Below are positions 20,838-34,555 of a stretch of 64,000 nt of DNA, one piece after another (position 1 is the first letter of the stretch; the number at the start of each line of letters is the position of its first letter). The notes beneath the pieces were generated by a model, which had not been told where the DNA came from, made no database searches, and saw nothing but the letters and a program-made list of their open reading frames with translations. The stretch covers positions 2,356,001-2,420,000 of the forward strand of contig NZ_CP049298.1 of NCBI RefSeq assembly GCF_011058315.1, in the 5' to 3' direction. The position numbers were made by a program, and so were the translations under genes. This stretch comes from Chryseobacterium sp. POL2. Lineage in GTDB: Bacteria > Bacteroidota > Bacteroidia > Flavobacteriales > Weeksellaceae.

Positions 20838-22124
20838 TTATAGTCTTTTAATATTTTCTGCGGGCTCTAGTTTGCCTTTAACATCATATATCACAGCGTT
20901 TGGCTTTAATAAGGTGTTGAGATCTAGCGCTTCGAATTCATTATGAGAAACAGCCAATACCACAGCATCGTATTTCTGATTCGGAAGTGTTGAAAATGTC
21001 TCAATAGCATATTCGTGTTTGACTTCTTCGGAATTTGCCCAAGGATCGTAGGTGTTGACTTTAATGTTATAATCTTCAAGATTTTTGATCACATCTACTA
21101 CTTTCGTATTACGAACATCGGGACAGTTTTCTTTAAAAGTAAATCCTAAAACCAATACGTTGGACTGATTAACTTTGATATCTTTTTTAAGCATTTGCTT
21201 TACGACTTCACTTGCCACATAATGTCCCATAGAGTCGTTCATACGGCGGCCTGCCAATATAATCTCTGGGTGATAACCAAATTCTTGTGCTTTTTGTGCC
21301 AAATAATAAGGGTCAACACCGATGCAGTGTCCACCAACCAATCCCGGTTTGAAAGGAAGGAAATTCCATTTTGTACCCGCAGCAGCCAAAACATCGTGCG
21401 TATCGATGTCCATCAAATTAAATATTTTTGCTAACTCGTTGACAAATGCAATGTTAATGTCACGTTGTGAATTTTCGATAACCTTTGCCGCTTCAGCTAC
21501 TTTAATCGTTGGTGCCAAGTGGGTTCCAGCAGTGATCACTGATTTATAAAGTTCATCGACCGTTTTTCCAATTTCGGGTGTAGAACCAGAAGTCACTTTT
21601 AATATTTTTTCAACCGTATGTTCTTTATCACCAGGATTAATGCGTTCTGGAGAATAGCCCGCATAGAAATCTTGGTTAAATTTTAATCCAGAATTTTTCT
21701 CTAAAACAGGAATGCATTCTTCCTCGGTCACGCCAGGATAAACAGTAGATTCATAGATGACGATGTCGCCTTTTTTCAAAACTTTTGCGACGGTTTCGCT
21801 GGCTTTGTAAAGCGGTGTTAAATCTGGGCGGTTGTTTTTGTCAACAGGCGTTGGCACTGTGACGATGTAGATGTTAGAGTCTGCAATGTCATTTAATTCG
21901 TTAGAACAGTACAAACCTTTTTCTGCGGAAGTAGGCTTGTGGTCTATGCTCGCATTTTTTAGGACGTCGTTATCTACTTCTAAAGTCGAATCAATACCTT
22001 GGCGAAGTTCCGAAATTCTTGCTTGGTTGATGTCGAATCCGACAACAGGAAACTTGGTTGCAAATAATCTTGCTAAAGGTAACCCCACATAACCGAGTCC
22101 GATAATACTTATTTTGTGATTCAT
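20838..22124 (-). CDS. Nucleotide sugar dehydrogenase, TviB/WbpO type (UDP-GlcNAc/GalNAc 6-dehydrogenase)
   Basis: 428 aa, usual length. Rossmann motif [12 protein letters not shown] (7-18), [19 protein letters not shown] (about 87-105), [30 protein letters not shown], and [14 protein letters not shown] with catalytic Cys267, then [20 protein letters not shown]. The sequence follows Salmonella TviB closely along its length. It would oxidise UDP-GlcNAc or UDP-GalNAc at C6 in two NAD-dependent steps, giving the corresponding uronic acid. The gene before it in the transcript (4 bp apart) is a TviC/WbpP-type 4-epimerase, so UDP-GalNAcA is the likely product of the pair. Substrate preference (GlcNAc before or after epimerisation) is inferred. 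Confidence 0.9.
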
Positions 22125-22128
22125 TGTT

Positions 22129-23121
22129 TTATTTTAAATTTTCCCAATACCATTTTACAGCTTCTTTCAGCCCGTCTTTCATAGAAAATTGAGGTTGGTA
22201 ATTTAGTAAATTTTTAGCTTTGTCGATGCTTGCTAGCGAGTGCGGAACATCGCCTTTTCTGTAGTCACCGTGGATGACTTCTACTTCTCCAATTTTAGAA
22301 TCAAACTCAGACAAATAATCTTTAAGATATTTTACTAAATCGTTAAGTGTTGTTCGTTCTCCAAAAGCAACATTATAAACTTGATTGTAAGCTTCTTGAT
22401 TGTCGGAAGTTACGGCCAGCAAATTCATTTGGATAACATTGTCGATGTAGGTGAAGTCGCGAGAATATTCGCCGCCACCGTTGATGGTGGGTGATTCGTG
22501 ATTCATAAACTGCATCACAAATTTCGGAATAACCGCTGCGTATGCGCCTCCTGGATTTTGTTTTCTCCCGAATACATTGAAATATCGTAAGCCAATGGTG
22601 TCAAAATCGTAAGTTTTTTTGAAAACGTCCGCGTACAATTCGTTCACATATTTGGTAATGGCATAAGGTGAAAGTGGTTTTCCGATGCGTTCTTCAATTT
22701 TTGGAAGTGCCTCCGAATCGCCATAAGTTGAAGAACTCGCGGCATATACCATACGTTTAACACCAGCGTCTCTTGCAGCAACCAAAATGTTAAGAAAGCC
22801 ACCAACATTGACATCGTTGCTTGTAATAGGATCGTTGATTGATCGAGGCACCGATCCCAACGCCGCCTGATGCAAAACGAATTCTTGACCTTCACAGGCT
22901 TTTTTACAGGTTTCTAAATCGCGGATATCACCTTCAATCAGTTTGAAATTGGGATGATTTTTTATGGCTTCCAAATTTTCGCGACGACCCGTAGAAAAAT
23001 TGTCAAGGCAAGTAACATACACGTCATTTTCTAACAAGACTTCGCATAAGTTGGAACCTATAAATCCTGCACCTCCAGTGATGAGGATGTTTTTATATTG
23101 TAGTTGAGGTTTAAAATTCAT
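22129..23121 (-). CDS. UDP-N-acetylglucosamine 4-epimerase-like SDR enzyme (TviC/WbpP type)
   Basis: 330 aa. NAD-binding [18 protein letters not shown] (about 11-28), then [20 protein letters not shown], the catalytic [13 protein letters not shown] and [15 protein letters not shown] (YxxxK), and [25 protein letters not shown]. The N-terminal extension before the Rossmann motif and the [14 protein letters not shown] block are characteristic of WbpP/TviC enzymes that interconvert UDP-GlcNAc and UDP-GalNAc or their uronic acids. First gene of the two-gene unit with the TviB-like dehydrogenase; a TAAATTTG box lies at 23152-23159. Confidence 0.9.
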
Positions 23122-25234: not shown

Positions 25235-26107
25235 TTATAATTTATAAAATTTTAATTTTTTATTGATTAAAACAATTATGGATAACGGAATCGAAATGTC
25301 TTTTAATTTCTCAGTCCATGTTGATTTGATGTCATTGATTTGGAAATCCCAATACGCGTTAAGAGCACTCAATTTAGCTATGAAAGGGATTTTTTCCTTG
25401 CTTAATGCTTTGAAAAATAATGAGGCGCCTTTCGGTGATTTCTTTAATAACTGCCAAGATTTTGCAGTTAAGCCGTCTTCAAGATAATCCGCAAAATAGA
25501 TGGGATCATCAATATACAGGGTTTTATATTTTTCACCAATTTGACGATAGACGTAGGATTCTCTGAAAAATTTTTCTCCTTCAAAATGTGGATAAGGATA
25601 TTGTTTCTGAATCTCGGTTTTGAAAGCTGTAGCAAAATCTCCTTTTATTCCTAACTGGTAAACGAGTTCGTTATGGGTTAAAAGAATCTCGTGCTGCGGA
25701 AGGTTTTTTGAGTAGATAATTTTGCTTTTGTCTTTTATAGAACGACAGCCAATGGCAATTCCGGCGACGTTTTTGTTGTCTTTTATATGGCCATATTTAG
25801 CAGTAAGTCTATCAATGGCATCATTTGATAAGAAATCGTCGCTGTCCACAATGAAGAACAGTTCGCCTTTGGCTTTTTCTAATCCATGATTAATCGCAAT
25901 ATGTTTACCATTGTTTACTTGATGATAATAACGAATCGGAAAATCTGCCTTTTCTTGAAATTGTTGTACCAATTGCGCCGTATTATCTGTACTTCCGTCA
26001 TCGACAATTAACCACTCAAAATCTTTGTGTGACTGCTCCAACAAGGATTGATACAATGTCGGAAGAATGTAAGCGCGGTTGTAGGTTGGCGTGAAGATGG
26101 TAATCAT
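25235..26107 (-). CDS. Glycosyltransferase family 2
   Basis: 290 aa. MITIFTPTYNRAYILPTLY, then FEWLIVDDGSTDNTAQLV (about 32-49) and GELFFIVDSDDFLSNDAI (DSDD metal motif, about 80-97). The C-terminal region FEGEKFFRESYVYRQIG (about 178-194) resembles the acceptor block of GT2 enzymes acting in polysaccharide loci. Related to the GT2 at 3770-4675 along most of its length. The start overlaps the end of the next GT2 gene upstream by 4 bp, so the two are coupled. Confidence 0.9.
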   Translation of the reverse strand: MITIFTPTYNRAYILPTLYQSLLEQSHKDFEWLIVDDGSTDNTAQLVQQFQEKADFPIRYYHQVNNGKHIAINHGLEKAKGELFFIVDSDDFLSNDAIDRLTAKYGHIKDNKNVAGIAIGCRSIKDKSKIIYSKNLPQHEILLTHNELVYQLGIKGDFATAFKTEIQKQYPYPHFEGEKFFRESYVYRQIGEKYKTLYIDDPIYFADYLEDGLTAKSWQLLKKSPKGASLFFKALSKEKIPFIAKLSALNAYWDFQINDIKSTWTEKLKDISIPLSIIVLINKKLKFYKL

Positions 26108-27069
26108 TTTTTGATAAAATTAATCCAACGATATTCCATTTTTTTTGGAGTCAAACCTATTGAAATTAATATTTTCGAGAAGTTTTTAATTTCAATTTTT
26201 TGTAGTTTAGTTAATATATGAAGTTTTTTTAAATAATTATTGATGAAAATTTTTAAATTAACAGTATCTTGATTTTTAATAATTTTTAGTAATATAAGAA
26301 TTAGATGCTCATAAGAATTCTCTACTAAATCTTTATCTTTTGTCTGTATGCCAATATGTAGCGCTTTGTTTCTTATATGCAGCTGAGATGGAATGTAATC
26401 TGGATTATAATTTTGCGCTTTTTTGGTGATAGAGTTGTCGTGTAGCCGGTACAAAAAAATAGATTTGTTTACAAATCCAATTTCATGTTCTTTAAGATTT
26501 GGTAAAATGTTAAGATAAAAATTGGTCTCTTGACCTCGCTTAATATTGGGGTCAAAAAGTTCTTTATCCTTCAGAAAATCTTTTTTAATTAAAGAACTTG
26601 GTGTTAATATTGGAAATCGCCAAAAGATGTAATCGTTTACCAGAGAGTTTTTTCGTTCAAAAGAAGATGTTCTTGTAAAGTTGAGCTCGTCATCGACATA
26701 GTCATGTTTTGCAAAGACAATTTGTGTTTCTTTTTTGAACAAAGGTATTCTAGAAGATAAAAAATCGTTTAGCATAATATCATCACTATCAAAAAAAACA
26801 ACTAATTCTCCTTTTGAAAGCTCGAATCCATGATTTCTACAACTATTCCCGCTTTTCACTAGATGGTCAGGTCTGCTATAATAAGAAATTCTACTATCCT
26901 TTTTCATGTAGCTTTCTAAAACTTCAGGCGTATTGTCCGTGCTTCCGTCATCCACGATAATACATTCCCAATTTTGATAGGTTTGAGCGATAATAGAATC
27001 CAAGGTTTCGCCTATAAGATTGGCTCGATTGTATACGGGGATGATGATAGAAACAAGCGGATTATACAT
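26104..27069 (-). CDS. Glycosyltransferase family 2
   Basis: 321 aa. MYNPLVSIIIPVYNRANLI begins the GT-A fold; WECIIVDDGSTDNTPEVL (about 35-52) and GELVVFFDSDDIMLNDFL (about 86-103) are the nucleotide and metal sites. A basic, Ile/Lys/Asn-rich C-terminus (about 230-321) is unlike the other GT2s here. The first codons overlap the last codons of the broken WecF-like reading frame by 8 bp, an arrangement that looks like a formerly coupled pair. Donor unknown. Confidence 0.88.
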   Translation of the reverse strand: MYNPLVSIIIPVYNRANLIGETLDSIIAQTYQNWECIIVDDGSTDNTPEVLESYMKKDSRISYYSRPDHLVKSGNSCRNHGFELSKGELVVFFDSDDIMLNDFLSSRIPLFKKETQIVFAKHDYVDDELNFTRTSSFERKNSLVNDYIFWRFPILTPSSLIKKDFLKDKELFDPNIKRGQETNFYLNILPNLKEHEIGFVNKSIFLYRLHDNSITKKAQNYNPDYIPSQLHIRNKALHIGIQTKDKDLVENSYEHLILILLKIIKNQDTVNLKIFINNYLKKLHILTKLQKIEIKNFSKILISIGLTPKKMEYRWINFIKK

Positions 27070-27493
27070 GATGTAAGTTTTCTATAGATAATTTTAATTG
27101 TTCTTGAAGTGTTTTTTTGTTAAGCTCTTTGTAAAGAATATTTCTATTATATTCTATTTCTTGATGGTTGTGTATATTGTTAATAGAAGCGTTATTGAGG
27201 TCTTTTTCGTAGCTATATACAATAATACCTATTTTTTTTAAATATTGATAAAATGTATTTTTTTCACTTAAAAATACTTTGGCCCCGAAATAAATTAAAG
27301 TAATTATATTGCCTACAGCTTGCCGTCGACGATTATTAAAAATAGCAATCTTTATCGAATTAAGCAAAATGTTATAATCTTCTAATTTTAAAAAGTCTGT
27401 GGTATGTTGCTAAGGTTCAGGGTTTAAAGGGTTTGATTTTAAAATCTTTTTGACATATTCTTGATTACCATATGAGAGAGGGACAATATGATG
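27062..27493 (-). pseudogene. Degenerate C-terminal remnant of a second WecF-family (GT56) transferase
   Basis: An open frame of 101 codons (27062-27367) aligns with the C-terminal third of the intact WecF-like protein next door: IAIFNNRRRQAVGNI against YVIFNHIRQQAIGNL, then YFGAKVFL against YLGAKIFL. Continuing upstream in the same frame, family similarity goes on as IVPLSYGNQEYVKKILKSN up to about 27487, but a TAG codon at 27410-27412 interrupts it and another stop closes the frame at 27494-27496. Everything N-terminal to the IVPLSY block is missing, and only about 40 bp remain before the intact gene's stop. So this is a 5'-deleted, stop-interrupted gene. Its similarity to the neighbour is moderate, so it is an older paralogue or a leftover of an earlier version of the locus, not a fresh duplication. 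Confidence 0.82.
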
Positions 27494-27535
27494 TTAATTC
27501 TAAATTTTAGTTTTCGTCATTTTCCTTAAGTTTTA

Positions 27536-28675
27536 TTACTGTTCTTTAGCTGATTTTATCAAATTAAATAATTCTTTAGTCCTAGCTTCTACAGTTGTTT
27601 TTGAAAAATAATTAAAAATGAAATTTTTATTATACATAATATCTTCAAGATTCATTTTTGTGTTTAATTCTTTAAAATCTATTTTTGAAGTAGGTGTAAA
27701 TATGACACTATTATCTCGTAAAAATTCTGATGTAACGCTTTTGCTATTTAAAAATATTTTTGCTCCTAAGTATCCCATAACTATTAAATTACCTATAGCC
27801 TGTTGTCTAATATGGTTAAAAATTACGTAACCACAATTAAAGATAATATTATTATAATCTTCCATCGGCATAAAGTCTACTAAGGCTAAGAAATTTTTAC
27901 CGAGCATTTTGTGTCCATAATCAATTATCTTTTTTTTGTATTCTTCGTTCCCAGAGTAGCTGAGAGGAACAACAACTTTTCTGTCCTCCAAGTTAATTTT
28001 ACTTAATTTGTCTATTATTGAGATATGATTATTGGAAGGGTCTGCAGAGTTACCTAATAAAATATCCTTTTTATTTGATAAATCAATATCCATATTACTG
28101 CCAATATACATTTCTAAATAACCATATGTATATGGTAAATATTTTATGTCAGAATTTAATTTTTTAATTTTAGAATATTCATTAGGTAATACAGGAGCAA
28201 AATAGTCTATTTTTTTGACCGCTTCTAGTAATTCTGATTTATAATATTTTTTTAAAATATTGTTTCCTAGTATTTTGAAGGATATATTATTATATATGAG
28301 TTTATCTTTGATATTATTTAAATTTAATTTTGACTCATCTTTTTCATATAAATTCAAGGCTTCTATTTTCCATTCACTATAGTATTCATAACCCCATAAA
28401 AACCAACAATAAATAAGTTTTTTTTTATGTTGGATAATTAAATTCCTAAAAATATGTGGTAAACTATGAAAGAAAATAACATCAAAAGAGGCTGTTATTT
28501 CTGAAAATTTATTCTCTATGACTTCAGTAGAATAATGAATGACATTGTTAGACTTTACATAATTTAATTTGTCATTATTTGAAATAACAATATTGATAAC
28601 ATTGTCTTTATGACTTAATTTTTGTATCGCAGAATCTACAAACTTATCATCAATAAATAGCTGTAGTATTCTCAT
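27536..28675 (-). CDS. WecF-family (GT56) TDP-Fuc4NAc-type transferase
   Basis: 379 aa from the ATG at 28673-28675 (MRILQLFIDDKF); a longer frame to 28720 would add 15 residues without domain sense, and this start overlaps the preceding stop as TAATG. Family features shared with enterobacterial WecF: FFHSLPHIFRNLI near the N-terminus, IYCWFLWGYEYY (HIWGADLY in WecF), ILLGNSADPSNNHIS (ILVGNSGDRSNEHI in WecF), VVVPLSYSGNEEYKKKI, and VIFNHIRQQAIGNL. WecF moves 4-acetamido-4,6-dideoxygalactose from its TDP donor onto a lipid-linked sugar. The genes just upstream could make such a donor, which supports the call. The acceptor here is unknown and the exact sugar (Fuc4NAc or Qui4NAc) is inferred. AT content is visibly higher than in the flanking cluster genes. 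Confidence 0.82.
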   Translation of the reverse strand: MRILQLFIDDKFVDSAIQKLSHKDNVINIVISNNDKLNYVKSNNVIHYSTEVIENKFSEITASFDVIFFHSLPHIFRNLIIQHKKKLIYCWFLWGYEYYSEWKIEALNLYEKDESKLNLNNIKDKLIYNNISFKILGNNILKKYYKSELLEAVKKIDYFAPVLPNEYSKIKKLNSDIKYLPYTYGYLEMYIGSNMDIDLSNKKDILLGNSADPSNNHISIIDKLSKINLEDRKVVVPLSYSGNEEYKKKIIDYGHKMLGKNFLALVDFMPMEDYNNIIFNCGYVIFNHIRQQAIGNLIVMGYLGAKIFLNSKSVTSEFLRDNSVIFTPTSKIDFKELNTKMNLEDIMYNKNFIFNYFSKTTVEARTKELFNLIKSAKEQ

Positions 28676-29307
28676 TAGTTTTGCTTTATAATTTTTGCAG
28701 GTATTCCCACAACTGTACAATTATCAGGAACATCTTTTGTGATGACAGAACCTGCGCCAATTATTACATTTTTACCTATTTGAATATTGGGAAGTATAGT
28801 AGAGTTTGTTCCTATAAAACTGTTTTCTCCTATGATACAATTACCTGAAATAGATACAGAAGGACAGATCTCAACATAATCACCTATAATTACATCATGA
28901 CCTATAGATGAAAGTTGATTAATAATAACTGATTTGCCGACTATTACATCATTTGTAATAACTACTTTTTGCATGATATTACAACCAACAGCTATCTTAT
29001 TCCCATAATTTCCAATACTAGAATTTGTTGCAATTATTGTTGTATTTACTCCTCCTATTGCTTCAAATTTTTCGACCAACATCTTTCTTAATGATGGGTT
29101 TCCTATTCCAATTGTAAATCGATTATCTTTAGTTTTAAAATAATTTTCAGCATCTTTTATACTTTTTAAAACAGGGAATTGGTTATATAATACATCATCA
29201 ATATCTACATTCACATCATCATAAAAAGATAGATTTTCGAGATCATTATTTTGATGGCAAATTTCTAATACCTCTTTTGCAAAACCCTTTGCTCCAACTA
29301 TTAACAT
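28675..29307 (-). CDS. PglD/NeuD-type sugar N- or O-acetyltransferase
   Basis: 210 aa. Residues 1-90 form a small Rossmann-like domain starting MLIVGAKGFAKEVLEI (GxxGxA-E nucleotide-binding pattern). Residues 95-210 are a left-handed beta-helix with hexapeptide repeats (NKIAVGCNIMQKVVIT, VIGKSVIINQLSSIGHDV with the catalytic His in SIGHD, IIGENSFIGTNSTIL, NVIIGAGSVITKDVPDNCTVVG). This is the plan of PglD, VioB and NeuD. Next to a DegT aminotransferase, it most likely acetylates the 4-amino group of a dTDP-4-amino-4,6-dideoxyhexose. Two bp after the aminotransferase gene and overlapping the WecF-like gene. Confidence 0.88.
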   Translation of the reverse strand: MLIVGAKGFAKEVLEICHQNNDLENLSFYDDVNVDIDDVLYNQFPVLKSIKDAENYFKTKDNRFTIGIGNPSLRKMLVEKFEAIGGVNTTIIATNSSIGNYGNKIAVGCNIMQKVVITNDVIVGKSVIINQLSSIGHDVIIGDYVEICPSVSISGNCIIGENSFIGTNSTILPNIQIGKNVIIGAGSVITKDVPDNCTVVGIPAKIIKQN

Positions 29308-29309
29308 AA

Positions 29310-30392
29310 TTAATTGTTTTGAGTTCTCAACATTAATCTACAAATATGATCTACCTCTTCTAATGTTAAATCATGATACATTGGTAAGCATAATACTCGT
29401 TTTGAAATATTGTCTGTAATTGGCATTTCAGTAGGTTCTAAATAAGGTAATGCTGATGCTAAACTAGGGTAAAAGTAGCGACGAGTTCCTATTTCATTTA
29501 ATTGTAAAACCTCTTTACATTTTAGTAACAATTCTTCACTTTCAATAATAATTGGGTAATAAGAATTATTATTGGCAGAGTTTGCATACCATTTAGGTCT
29601 ATAATGGTTAAATCCTTTTAATTTTTCGTCATATCTATTGGCTATTTGCTGACGCTTATTTTTAATCTCATCAATATGATTTAAATTAACAATACCCATA
29701 GCTGCATGAAATTCTGAATTTTTACCATTAATCCCTAATTCAGAAAACGAATCAAAACCAGAAATTCCAAAGTTTCGAATAGATGCTAGTTTTTTTAATA
29801 GATCGGGATTTGATGTAGTGATTAATCCTCCCTCAATACTATGATACAATTTAGTTGCATGAAGGCTACAAGTAGAAATATCACCAAATTCGAATATGGA
29901 TTTTCCATTAACTTCTACACCAAATGCGTGTGCAGCATCATAGATAACTTTCAAATTATGTTTTTTTGCTATTTTTTCAATAGCTATTACGTCACAAGGA
30001 TTTCCATAAACATGAGTTGCCAAAATAGCTTGTGTATCTTTAGTTATAGCAGCTTCAATTTTTGAAGCATCTATACATAATGTTTCTTCATCTATATCAA
30101 CAAAGACTGGCGTACAACCTTCCCATACAATAGTAGAGGTTGTAGCTACAAATGAAAAGGGTGTTGTTATAATTTCCCCCTTTAGATTAAGTGCTTTTAT
30201 CGCCATCTGCAAAGCGATAGTACCATTTGTTACAAATAATAGGTGATTAACTTTAAGATAATCCTTCAAGTTCATTTCCAGTTGACTCGCTAAAGGTCCC
30301 ATATTAGTTAACCATTGTCTATTCCAAATACCTTTAATAAAATTTTGGTATTCTTCTTGTGGAGGTAAAAAGGGTCTAGTTACAGGTATCAT
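29310..30392 (-). CDS. DegT/DnrJ/EryC1 sugar aminotransferase, probable dTDP-4-amino-4,6-dideoxyhexose transaminase
   Basis: 360 aa, normal length for the family. MIPVTRPFLPPQEEY resembles VioA/WecE-like N-termini; FVTNGTIALQMAIKAL (about 53-68) binds the PLP phosphate; VIYDAAHAFGVE carries Asp152; SLHATKLYHSIEGGLI carries the PLP lysine Lys181. PLP-dependent, glutamate as donor, acting on a nucleotide-linked 4-keto-6-deoxy sugar. With RmlA and RmlB upstream, no RmlC/RmlD, and an acetyltransferase just downstream, the product is likely dTDP-4-amino-4,6-dideoxyglucose or -galactose. C3 amination cannot be ruled out from sequence. Confidence 0.88.
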   Translation of the reverse strand: MIPVTRPFLPPQEEYQNFIKGIWNRQWLTNMGPLASQLEMNLKDYLKVNHLLFVTNGTIALQMAIKALNLKGEIITTPFSFVATTSTIVWEGCTPVFVDIDEETLCIDASKIEAAITKDTQAILATHVYGNPCDVIAIEKIAKKHNLKVIYDAAHAFGVEVNGKSIFEFGDISTCSLHATKLYHSIEGGLITTSNPDLLKKLASIRNFGISGFDSFSELGINGKNSEFHAAMGIVNLNHIDEIKNKRQQIANRYDEKLKGFNHYRPKWYANSANNNSYYPIIIESEELLLKCKEVLQLNEIGTRRYFYPSLASALPYLEPTEMPITDNISKRVLCLPMYHDLTLEEVDHICRLMLRTQNN

Positions 30393-30394
30393 AA

Positions 30395-31672
30395 TTAATA
30401 GAAGTTAGCATCCAATAATAGAGAGTTTCCGGGTCTTATTTTTCGACCACTATTAAAAAAGTCGGATTCAATAACAGATAGAACTTTGGCATTAACAAGA
30501 ACATCACAAAAATCTTTAGGACTGGTTGTCTTGTGAGAAATTTGATATGAGAAAAAATAATTTTCAGCTCTTAGATTGAATTTTGGAATATCAAGTATGA
30601 TTTCTTTATTACTTTTAATTTCAAAACGCATTTCATCTGAAACCCATGTGACAATTTTATTTTCATACTTATCTGAAAATCCACATGCAATGATTAGATT
30701 GTTAAAGTCAATATTAGCATGATTTTCAATCGTAAATTTAATTTTAAGAGCATCTCCAGATAATATTTCGGATGTTGGTTGCCCAAGATTGTTATAAAAA
30801 ATAATATCGGTTACCTCGACTTGTTTATTTCCTATTTTATCTTTTCTAGATTGTATTGCTTCCTCGTAGTTACCAGCAGTGTCAGATAAGTAACGAGAAA
30901 TGGTATCTTCTATTTCTCCAACATATTCCAAAGTTCCATTTTTCATATAGACACCAGAATCGCATAAACTTTTTACCGCGCCAATGTTATGACTTACAAA
31001 AAGTACAGTTCTTCCTTCACCTTTTGATACATCATTCATTTTGCCAAGACATTTCTTCTGGAACTCGGCATCGCCCACTGCTAAAACCTCATCAACGATT
31101 AAGATTTCCGATTCTAAATGTGCGGCAACAGCAAAAGCTAAGCGAACATACATACCAGAAGAATAACGTTTGACAGGTGTGTCGATATAACGTTCTACTC
31201 CTGCGAAATCTACGATTTCATCAAACTTACGTGTGATTTCTTTACGTGTCATTCCAAGAATAGCACCGTTCAAATAAATATTTTCGCGACCTGTCATTTC
31301 GGGATGAAAACCAGTGCCAACTTCTAACAACGAAGCAATACGTCCTTTGTATTTGATAGAACCTGTTGTTGGTTTTGTTACACGAGAAAGCAATTTCAAT
31401 AAGGTTGATTTACCTGCTCCATTACGCCCAATAATCCCAACAGCCTGCCCTTGTTCTATTTGGAAATTAATATCTTTAAGTGCCCACACATAATCTGATG
31501 CACCTTTTTGAGTTCTATCATTAGTCTCTCCAATTTTTAGATAAGGATCTTCCTGTCCTCTAATATTGGCCCACCATCTTACAATATCATGTTGTAATGA
31601 TCCAGTTCCCACTTCACCAAGTCGATACTGTTTCGAAACATTTTCGACATCTAAAACAATATTTTTTGACAT
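30395..31672 (-). CDS. wzt: Polysaccharide ABC exporter ATPase with C-terminal glycan-binding domain (Wzt)
   Basis: 425 aa from the ATG at 31670-31672 (MSKNIVLDVENVSKQYRLG); an upstream ATG at 31744 lies inside the permease gene and adds residues that are not part of an ATPase. ATPase domain about 1-245: Walker A GRNGAGKST (82-90), signature RYSSGMYVRLAFA, Walker B EILIVDEVLAVGD, H-loop FVSHN. Residues about 265-425 form the beta-sandwich typical of the Wzt C-terminal domain (VEVTDIIFYNN ... IKFTIENHANIDF), which in O9a-type systems binds the chain's non-reducing-end cap before export. Partner of the permease gene just upstream. It powers transport of the lipid-linked polymer across the inner membrane. 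Confidence 0.92.
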   Translation of the reverse strand: MSKNIVLDVENVSKQYRLGEVGTGSLQHDIVRWWANIRGQEDPYLKIGETNDRTQKGASDYVWALKDINFQIEQGQAVGIIGRNGAGKSTLLKLLSRVTKPTTGSIKYKGRIASLLEVGTGFHPEMTGRENIYLNGAILGMTRKEITRKFDEIVDFAGVERYIDTPVKRYSSGMYVRLAFAVAAHLESEILIVDEVLAVGDAEFQKKCLGKMNDVSKGEGRTVLFVSHNIGAVKSLCDSGVYMKNGTLEYVGEIEDTISRYLSDTAGNYEEAIQSRKDKIGNKQVEVTDIIFYNNLGQPTSEILSGDALKIKFTIENHANIDFNNLIIACGFSDKYENKIVTWVSDEMRFEIKSNKEIILDIPKFNLRAENYFFSYQISHKTTSPKDFCDVLVNAKVLSVIESDFFNSGRKIRPGNSLLLDANFY

Positions 31673-31691
31673 AAATAAATTCTTAAAAAAA

Positions 31692-32552
31692 TTAAACAGT
31701 ATCCATGAACGATTTTTCAACTTTATTGAAAATGAATGTGCCAATCAATAATACAATAAATATGAAAATAGTGGAGTAGAGCAACATACCAATGTTAAAA
31801 TCACCCACACCAAGGTAAGCATATTTGAAGCACTCAAAAATTCCGGTTAATGGGTTGTAGTCCGCAATCCATCTGTAATTTTCGGGTATTGAAGATACGG
31901 GATAGACAACAGGTGTTATATACATATACAAAGAGACGCCAAAACCTAATAACATCGATAAATCTTTATATTTTGTTGTCATAGACGAAAAGATCATACC
32001 TGTTCCCATAGCAAATGCTGCCATTAAAATAATTAAAAAAGGTGTTGCTAATATCCATAAATTAGGATGCACATTTTTGTCTACTATAAAATAATACAAA
32101 AGAAAGCCAACAAATAAAAGGAATTGTACCGCAAATTGCATCAAGTTGGATGTTACAATAGCCAAAGGCATAACCAATCTTGGAAAATAGACCTTTCCAA
32201 ATATTGAAGCGTTACCTCGGAATACATTGGACGTGTTATTAAGACAAGACGAAAAATAATTCCAAAGGATAACTCCAGATAGATAAAAAGGGATTTTCGG
32301 AGCACCATCTGTAGATAAATTAGCAATGTTACCAAAAACAATCACATACATGATGGTTGTGAAGATAGGGTTTATAAAAAACCACAAAGGGCCTAAAATA
32401 GTTTGTTTAAAAGAAGTAACGAAATCTCTCTTGACCAACATATAGACCAAGTCTCGATAATTCCAAACTTCTTTTAAGTTTAAAGAAAATAGAGAATGTT
32501 TGGCTTCAATTACTTGAGACCATTTTTTATTATCATCAATTGTGTTGTTCAT
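31692..32552 (-). CDS. wzm: Polysaccharide ABC exporter permease (Wzm)
   Basis: 286 aa. The cytoplasmic N-terminus (KEVWNYRDLVYMLVKRDFVTSFKQTILGPLWFFINPI, about 24-60) is the amphipathic region of ABC-2 polysaccharide permeases, followed by six hydrophobic helices and SLYMYITPVVYPVSSIPENYRWIADYNPLTGIFECF, the family block near the fifth helix. Twenty bp ahead of wzt. Together they form the Wzm/Wzt exporter for lipid-linked O-antigen or teichoic-acid-like chains. Presence of this pair, and absence of Wzx/Wzy, sets the export mode of the cluster. Confidence 0.92.
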   Translation of the reverse strand: MNNTIDDNKKWSQVIEAKHSLFSLNLKEVWNYRDLVYMLVKRDFVTSFKQTILGPLWFFINPIFTTIMYVIVFGNIANLSTDGAPKIPFYLSGVILWNYFSSCLNNTSNVFRGNASIFGKVYFPRLVMPLAIVTSNLMQFAVQFLLFVGFLLYYFIVDKNVHPNLWILATPFLIILMAAFAMGTGMIFSSMTTKYKDLSMLLGFGVSLYMYITPVVYPVSSIPENYRWIADYNPLTGIFECFKYAYLGVGDFNIGMLLYSTIFIFIVLLIGTFIFNKVEKSFMDTV

Positions 32553-32557
32553 GTGTT

Positions 32558-33418
32558 TTATTTGACTAAGTTTTTCAAATAGCTACCATAGCCACTTTTA
32601 CCATATTTTTCTGCGGATTTTAAAAGTTGTTCTTCGTTAATGAATCCTTTGCGGTAAGCAATTTCTTCGATACAAGATATTTTGAAACCTTGTCTTTTTT
32701 CAAGAACACGTACAAATTCTGATGCTTCGTGTAAAGAGTCAAAAGTTCCTGTATCAAGCCACGCTGTTCCGCGACTCATCACGCCAACTTCTAGCTCCCC
32801 TTTTTCCAGGTATATTTTATTAATATCGGTAATTTCTAATTCGCCTCTTGAGGATGGTTTTAGATTTTTTGCATATTCTACAACAGAGTTGTCATAAAAA
32901 TATAAACCAGGCACCGCAAAATTAGATTTAGGTGTTGTGGGTTTTTCTTCAATGGAAAGCGCATTGTTGTTTTTATCAAATTCTACAACGCCATAACGTT
33001 CAGGGTCAGATACTTGATAAGCAAATACACAACCGCCTTTAAGCTTTGTTTTGCTTTCCAAAAGTTGAGGTAGGCCTGTACCATAAAATATGTTATCTCC
33101 CAAAACCAATGCAACAGAATCGTCTCCAATAAAGTCTTCTCCAAGGATAAATGCTTGTGCTAATCCGTCTGGAGATGGCTGTATTTTGTACTCAAAACGA
33201 CAACCTATTTGAGAGCCGTCTCCAAGAAGTCTTTGGAAAGCTTCCTGATCATGAGGCGTAGTGATAATTAAAATCTCACGAATTCCAGCTAATAACAGTG
33301 TGGAAATCGGGAAATAAATCATGGGTTTATCATATACAGGCATTAGTTGCTTGCTGACCGCGATTGTTAATGGGTATAATCTTGTGCCTGATCCTCCAGC
33401 GAGAATGATTCCTTTCAT
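32558..33418 (-). CDS. rmlA: Glucose-1-phosphate thymidylyltransferase
   Basis: 286 aa, the normal RmlA length. [18 protein letters not shown] is the nucleotide-binding signature; [25 protein letters not shown] and [17 protein letters not shown] are hallmark blocks of the enzyme. It condenses dTTP with glucose-1-phosphate to dTDP-glucose, the first step toward deoxy and amino sugars. It lies 5 bp before wzm in the transcript and 57 bp after rmlB; that gap holds a 9-bp hairpin (33437-33466). No rmlC or rmlD is in the window, so the product likely feeds the 4-amino sugar branch. Confidence 0.95.
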
Positions 33419-33475: not shown

Positions 33476-34555
33476 TTAGTTATATTGCTTTTCGTAATAT
33501 TTTTGATAGTCTCCAGAGGTCACATGCTCGAGCCATTCTTTATTTGATAAAAACCAGTCGATTGTTTTGGAAAGGCCTTCTTCAAATGTTACAGATGGTT
33601 TCCAGCCTAGATCTTTGTTAAGTTTTGTCGCGTCTATTGCATAGCGTTTGTCATGTCCTGGTCTGTCTTTCACAAACGTAATGAGCTTTTCTGAAAAACC
33701 AACAGATTTGCCTGTTTTTTCGTCAACTTGCTTGATGAGTTCTTTTACAAGGTCGATGTTTTGCCACTCGTTCCAACCGCCAATGTTGTAGGTTTCACCA
33801 GTTTTGGCTTCATGAAAAATCTGGAAAATTGCTTTTGCATGATCGATAACATATAGCCAATCTCTTGTGTATTTTCCGTCGCCATATATTGGTAAAGGTT
33901 TTTCGTTCAGTATGTTAGAGATGCAAAGTGGAATCAGTTTTTCTGGAAAATGATTTGGCCCATAATTATTCGAACAATTAGAAACGATAAATGGCATGCC
34001 ATACGTGTTCCCATAGGCTCTTACCAAATGATCGGAAGCCGCTTTGCTTGCAGAGTAGGGTGATTTTGGATCATAAGAAGTTTCCTCGGTGAAGAAACCT
34101 GTTTCTCCTAGCGCACCATAGACTTCGTCTGTAGAAACATGATAGAACAGATTGGTTCTCGTTTCATCAGGGAAATTACCATGTTGATGGTCAGGATTTA
34201 GTGCCCAAAATTCTTTAGCCAAATTTAACAGGTTAGCTGTACCATTCACGTTGGTGTTGATAAAAGCATTAGGATCGGTAATGCTTCTGTCGACATGAGA
34301 TTCCGCCGCTAGATGTATGACGGCGTCAGGATTATGCTTTTCAAAAACTTTTCTAAGTTCTTCAGGTTTTGTTATATCAGCTTTTTCGAAAATGTAATTA
34401 GCTTCATTCTCGATATCTTTTAAATTTTCTAGATTTCCAGCATAAGTTAGGGCATCTAGATTGATAATTTTGGTGTTGGGAAGGTTCTTAACAAATTCTC
34501 TTACAACATGAGATCCGATAAAACCTGCGCCACCTGTTATGATAATGTTTTTCAT
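33476..34555 (-). CDS. rmlB: dTDP-glucose 4,6-dehydratase
   Basis: 359 aa. Extended [21 protein letters not shown] (NAD site), LDALTYAGNLENL, HLAAESHVDRSITDP, FYHVSTDEVYGALG, YSASKAASDHLVRAY (YxxxK) and NCSNNYGPNHFPEKLIP are RmlB hallmarks, including the Asp-Glu pair in STDEVYG used for dehydration. Converts dTDP-glucose to dTDP-4-keto-6-deoxyglucose, the substrate for the aminotransferase further down. Located 1 bp after ugd. Confidence 0.95.
   Translation of the reverse strand: MKNIIITGGAGFIGSHVVREFVKNLPNTKIINLDALTYAGNLENLKDIENEANYIFEKADITKPEELRKVFEKHNPDAVIHLAAESHVDRSITDPNAFINTNVNGTANLLNLAKEFWALNPDHQHGNFPDETRTNLFYHVSTDEVYGALGETGFFTEETSYDPKSPYSASKAASDHLVRAYGNTYGMPFIVSNCSNNYGPNHFPEKLIPLCISNILNEKPLPIYGDGKYTRDWLYVIDHAKAIFQIFHEAKTGETYNIGGWNEWQNIDLVKELIKQVDEKTGKSVGFSEKLITFVKDRPGHDKRYAIDATKLNKDLGWKPSVTFEEGLSKTIDWFLSNKEWLEHVTSGDYQKYYEKQYN

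Follow-up and report, generated by a model that had tools for sequence, protein, structure and literature searches.

Remnant of a GT56 glycosyltransferase gene and probable exchange of a sugar module in an O-antigen-type locus of Chryseobacterium sp. POL2

In this study, we analysed a window of 64,000 nucleotides from the genome of Chryseobacterium sp. POL2, which is a single contig of 3.24 Mb. We found that minus-strand positions 27062-27493 are what is left of the C-terminal ~38% of a WecF-like glycosyltransferase of family PF07429 (CAZy GT56), to which they align co-linearly and without gaps. Judged by their gene content, the surroundings form a polysaccharide cluster of O-antigen type served by an ABC exporter, made up of Wzm and of Wzt with a Wzt_C domain. 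Our reading is that a sugar module and its transferase were exchanged, with the right-hand junction inside the old GT56 gene, and we put the probability of this reading at roughly 0.8. A whole sugar module, not a single transferase, seems to have been exchanged. The direction was probably from an N-acylated Fuc4N to Qui4NAc, names that rest on enzyme family assignment.

All main genes of the cluster lie on the minus strand, from 35.9 kb down to 20.8 kb (Table 1). The exporter genes scored 71.7 bits for ABC2_membrane, 82.8 for ABC_tran and 46.1 for Wzt_C (cut-offs 26.9, 25 and 30.4). The only other genome of the genus sampled was that of a sister species (G001), in which tviB, tviC, rmlA and wzm, around the cluster middle, are 87-95% identical. 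The tviB/tviC-like pair (window 20838-23121) is 91-93% identical there. Between this pair and wzt, none of the tested transferase and module proteins of the window has a match above ~38% identity in G001. The sister species has neither GT56 and no match to the window's Wzt C-domain. On this comparison, the locus is a variable centre between conserved flanks, and the tviB/tviC-like pair is one edge of the variable region.

Table 1. Features of the polysaccharide locus, in window coordinates
Feature	Position	Strand	Remark
GT56 (WecF-like) remnant, type A, C-terminal part	27065..27493	-	gap-free against three related full-length proteins
101-codon open frame within the remnant	27062..27367	-	TTG falls on a Leu codon internal to the family alignment
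In-frame TAG within the remnant	27410..27412	-	
Junction stretch	27494..27535	-	from the intact GT56 stop to the first residue with detectable GT56 homology
In-frame TAA and TAG	27494-27496 and 27500-27502	-	both within the junction stretch
Intact GT56, 379 aa	27536..28675	-	probable 4-amido-4,6-dideoxyhexose transferase (predicted function)
NeuD/PglB/VioB-family sugar acetyltransferase, putative incoming module	28675..29307	-	TIGR03570 193.9 bits, cut-off 160.8
DegT-family sugar aminotransferase, putative incoming module	29310..30392	-	nearest NCBIfam model DesI
wzt, exporter ATPase	30395..31672	-	ABC_tran and Wzt_C
Wzt C-terminal domain	30395..30922	-	close relatives only in three type A genomes among 295 others
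wzm, exporter membrane subunit	31692..32552	-	ABC2_membrane
GT2a, family-2 glycosyltransferase	26104..27069	-	ATG overlaps the remnant stop by 8 bases
rmlA-like nucleotidyltransferase	32558..33418	-	NTP_transferase; predicted precursor supply
rmlB-like sugar-nucleotide dehydratase	33476..34555	-	epimerase/dehydratase family; predicted role

A previous sequence-only reading took the 101-codon frame not for an orphan gene but for the 3' part of a WecF-like GT56 gene. Our profile matches agree with it, as do the gap-free alignment and the position of the TTG at an internal Leu codon. The frame matched PF07429 with an E-value of 2.8e-5 and 23.8 bits, just short of the curated Pfam cut-off of 25, and the NCBIfam WecF model NF002756 with 9.5e-17 and 61.1 bits, far below the equivalog cut-off of 457. 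A custom profile was built on 16 intact GT56 proteins, and significance was taken from 2000 shuffles. With this profile, the remnant read through with X at its stops scored 143.8 bits. The stretch 27368-27493, with X at its stop, scored 25.9 bits, which none of the 2000 shuffles reached, and the earlier claim that the family alignment continues upstream in the same frame is thereby borne out. Within it, 27413-27493 alone scored 18.1 bits (0/2000 shuffles as high), with no GT56 match on Pfam alone, and the short piece 27368-27409 scored 3.1 bits, reached by 1 of the 2000 shuffles. The TAG that had been reported at 27410-27412 is present, and the two stops of the junction stretch lie just beyond the span noted at that time. 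No GT56 homology was detected in 27494-27535, where 491 of 2000 shuffles scored as high. Therefore, the recognisable relic begins at ~27493, after a junction of ~40 bases. It corresponds to residues 237-385 of a 390-aa protein of Empedobacter tilapiae and to residues 222-367 of the 379-aa intact neighbour. The N-terminal loss described earlier is thus real, but it amounts to ~61% of the protein instead of two thirds. These alignments indicate that the remnant is a fragment of a GT56 member, not a working member. Frameshifts in the remnant were ruled out by the lack of any gap against each of the three related full-length proteins, and a phage origin of the fragment by the lack of a PHROGs match. 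A Bacteroidota-type promoter pattern was not found within the remnant; the window held 4 matches to it, with 8.0 expected by chance.

The GT56 family search matched 16 of 296 genomes. In the trees, the relic clustered with the GT56 proteins of E. tilapiae and of two other family genomes (FastTree 0.990, UFBoot 99), a group referred to here as type A. It aligns with these proteins over ~150 codons and, at the aligned columns, is 44% identical to the protein of the E. tilapiae locus (L005), 43% to that of L060 (genome G171) and 41% to that of L061 (genome G087). Its similarity to the intact neighbour is moderate, as had been stated beforehand, with 46 of 152 residues identical (30%). No other piece of a type A GT56 gene was found in the source genome. 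In all three type A loci, the GT56 gene lies directly downstream of a gene for a WecE-type aminotransferase, which scored 561-568 bits against NF008687 (dTDP-4-amino-4,6-dideoxygalactose transaminase; cut-off 375), and a GT2 gene comes after it. The GT56 and GT2 genes overlap by 20 bases in L005 and by 4 bases in L061, and are separated by 13 bases in L060. The genes between wzt and WecE differ among the three loci. In L060, a DDE transposase gene (PF01609, 5769-6747) interrupts wzt within the C-terminal domain, so the exporter of G171 may be broken. A search for a close WecE in the source genome found none, the best match being 34% identical.

The locus of E. tilapiae MRS2 (NZ_SRPE01000005.1) resembles that of the window in that wzm, wzt, the full-length relative of the relic and a homologue of GT2a follow each other in the same order, and the two Wzt C-domains are 76% identical. 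The E. tilapiae DNA aligned at window 30391-32522 with 81.8% identity, ending at the wzt stop, and at 26882-27352 with 70.5% identity, covering most of the relic and the GT2a start. Between these flanks, only a GT56-to-GT56 match of ~100 bases was found. The bracketed interval is ~3.0 kb in both genomes and differs in content: a formyltransferase, WecE and most of the type A GT56 in E. tilapiae, and a DesI-like aminotransferase, a NeuD/VioB-family acetyltransferase and the intact GT56 in the window. Close relatives of the Wzt C-domain (52-76% identity) were present in only 3 of the 295 other sampled family genomes, G091 (E. tilapiae), G087 and G171, which are the same three that carry the nearest relatives of the remnant; six further family genomes gave weak matches. 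In four other loci (L074, L087, L088 and L089), the Wzt N-terminal domain is about as similar (89-92%), and none has a C-domain match apart from a weak one of 38% in L089.

The downstream flank was also compared. GT2a is 65% identical to its counterpart in G112, in a locus without GT56, versus 51% over 219 residues to that of E. tilapiae. Among the loci examined, the best matches to GT2a and to the next gene come from yet another genome of the genus Empedobacter, at 65% and 87%. The downstream flank therefore has a mosaic history of its own. In another Empedobacter-genus genome (G103, L058 11035-11987), the GT2a homologue is broken into two overlapping matches, one with five stops. A 238-aa protein of an unclassified family was seen in polysaccharide loci of three Empedobacter-genus genomes (L057 10237-10953, L074 8463-9179 and L058 17009-17725), in two of them directly before the GT2a homologue. 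Pfam gave only a CAT hit below threshold for one of the three, and the L057 copy has no PHROGs match.

We examined the three genes that fill the interval in the window. The intact GT56 scored 56.1 bits against PF07429 (cut-off 25) and 140 bits against the WecF equivalog model (cut-off 457). Its AlphaFold2 model (pLDDT 82.3, pTM 0.80) has a glycosyltransferase fold, and the best solved-structure matches include the glycosyltransferases GlgM, BshA, PimA and HepE, which are GT-B enzymes; a sequence search of solved structures found no relatives at E-values up to 1. For the aminotransferase, the best-scoring model is DesI, with 261 bits against a cut-off of 650, and the protein falls below every equivalog cut-off listed; its substrate is a prediction. 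The acetyltransferase belongs to the NeuD/PglB/VioB family, and VioB is among its best solved relatives. These assignments suggest that the incoming module probably makes a Qui4NAc-type sugar. WecF, the TDP-Fuc4NAc:lipid II Fuc4NAc transferase of enterobacterial common antigen, shares PF07429 with the intact GT56. The type A genes resemble the WecF setting in that they directly follow a WecE-type aminotransferase gene. The intact GT56 of the window follows aminotransferase and acetyltransferase genes, and it differs from WecF in lying in an ABC-exporter polysaccharide locus and in scoring far below the equivalog cut-off.

Similar trios were found elsewhere. A contiguous aminotransferase-NeuD-GT56 trio occurs in six of ten 20-kb regions around non-type-A GT56 genes (L063, L065, L066, L067, L068 and L071), a count that leaves out L076, a 3.2-kb fragment, and L006, an Aliarcobacter locus. 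In these six, the aminotransferases are 51-76% and the acetyltransferases 40-66% identical to those of the window, with the GT56 proteins at only 23-30%, so none of the six is the direct donor. The non-type-A GT56 proteins do not form one clade in the tree, and the window wzm had no match above 60 bits in any of the ten regions. A polysaccharide flippase gene was found in six of the ten (L063, L065, L067, L069, L070 and L072), including three of the six trio regions, with a coarse screen for long hydrophobic frames, which can miss some. Aminotransferases with 74-78% identity are also present in G044 and G124, in loci with other wzm/wzt genes and without GT56.

We propose that the ancestral order was wzm, wzt, an acyl transferase, WecE, GT56 type A and GT2a, as in E. 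tilapiae. Recombination would have replaced the stretch from just past the wzt stop to the inside of the GT56 gene and brought in three genes, for a DesI-like aminotransferase, a NeuD/VioB-family acetyltransferase and another complete GT56. Because the right-hand end of the exchange would fall inside the resident GT56 gene, its last ~143 codons would have been left behind; they would since have come to carry stops, and the downstream GT2a would have kept its own start region. In the polysaccharide, a 4-amido-4,6-dideoxy-galactose residue (a Fuc4N derivative) would have given way to a 4-amido-4,6-dideoxy-glucose residue (Qui4NAc). The remnant, its kinship, the type A-like genes on either side and the trios at other loci are observations, from which, together with the gene families, we infer this order of events, these sugars and the change of the glycan. 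The recombination reading draws on alignments of one genome per species in a sampled family. Over the 101 codons, the closest full-length relative of the relic reaches no more than 58% identity, so the ancestor is reconstructed from other genera.

The sequence-only reading had left open whether the locus once held two different transferases or had one replaced. If two functional GT56 genes stood side by side, the type A copy could later have been truncated in place. Both genes are GT56, adjacent and co-oriented, and the remaining codons of the remnant have diverged little. For each protein of the type A group, we counted departures from the columns that are conserved among the other three: 5 of 44 for the relic, and 4 of 43, 9 of 48 and 7 of 46 for the intact proteins. 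Since the relic departs no more than intact members do, long decay cannot be read from the protein sequence by itself. By this measure, the relic is not strikingly decayed, and the gene was probably broken recently on the time scale over which these genera diverged. However, no other genome in the family searches has adjacent GT56 genes (the two of G042 lie on separate contigs). Moreover, WecE, which accompanies type A in every case, has no close counterpart in the source genome, and together with the missing N-terminal part it is what the E. tilapiae flanks bracket. Truncation in place is accordingly improbable, and of the two histories that had been offered, replacement fits better.

It is slightly less probable still that the 101-codon frame functions as a small gene, or that the remnant was kept to set up GT2a initiation. 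The frame is open over 101 codons, and the 8-base overlap of its stop with the GT2a start resembles the overlaps seen where the full-length genes end in L005 and L061. However, the TTG that would serve as its start is an internal codon, and the N-terminal part is absent. Among 296 family genomes, no match is a stand-alone version: all 16 matches outside the source genome lie in open frames of at least 266 aa, and a conserved short frame was looked for because it would have spoken against the earlier note. The 16 intact GT56 proteins share 11 invariant positions, five of which (M1, Y99, S210, N216 and H217) fall in the missing part. Within its own span, the relic keeps six of seven invariant columns, and the seventh, equivalent to Q291, is changed from Gln to Arg. 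Judged by the strand order of the neighbour model, the relic would lack the N-terminal domain as well as the strand that opens the C-terminal one. With neither full length nor all invariant residues, it is very unlikely to have kept the activity of the ancestral enzyme. The 101-codon frame should be annotated as a fragment of a pseudogene rather than as an orphan. Finally, the intact GT56 could have been duplicated locally and one copy truncated. This would account for adjoining genes of the same family, but it is hardly credible, because the remnant is 30% identical to its neighbour versus 41-44% to type A proteins of other genera over the same columns, and the trees contradict it by grouping the remnant with type A (0.99/99).

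Exchange of a sugar module and its transferase is an event of a known kind, an ordinary route of bacterial surface change. In enterobacterial O-antigen clusters, remnant transferase genes are left by gene replacement. As in those clusters, a truncated gene lies here at the edge of exchanged sequence. The present case differs from them in that it concerns an ABC-exporter locus, in a bacterium related to Empedobacter, and in that a donor-sugar module seems to have been exchanged as a block along with its transferase. Among literature titles and abstract openings, we found no GT56 remnant and no Empedobacter O-antigen loci, which does not imply absence from print.

In the systems studied, the completed chain is bound at its modified end by the Wzt C-domain (PMC9445017). 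The C-domain, WecE and type A GT56 co-occur in three genera in which the intervening genes differ, which would fit recognition of the sugar added by GT56. The window-type C-domain might thus read a GT56-added 4-amido-4,6-dideoxyhexose as the export mark. If so, the mark was exchanged under a kept domain, which leaves two outcomes: the domain accepts both epimers, or export in this strain is poor. The association fades at low similarity. Of the six weak family matches to the C-domain, G163 and G145 were looked at; G103 ends at a contig end, and G011, G104 and G273 were left out. G163 has a WecE (68%) and no GT56 was found within the surrounding 20 kb, and neither WecE nor GT56 was found at G145. 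Among the weak matches of the order search, six 20-kb regions were examined, with no GT56 in five (L121-L125). The sixth (L120) has a GT56-like gene between wzt and the GT2a homologue, with 42 bits on our own profile, no Pfam match and no WecE. Because the link comes from three loci only and fades in this way, we regard this idea about recognition as doubtful.

The three-way link of Wzt C-domain, WecE and type A GT56 makes the question of recognition by the Wzt domain testable. If the idea is true, the window locus would be a natural experiment in which an old recognition domain was kept and its mark exchanged for the C-4 epimer, attached by a GT56 from a different branch. For a little-studied group, the locus would provide one clearly bracketed example of a polysaccharide re-typed by swapping the sugar-making module together with its transferase.
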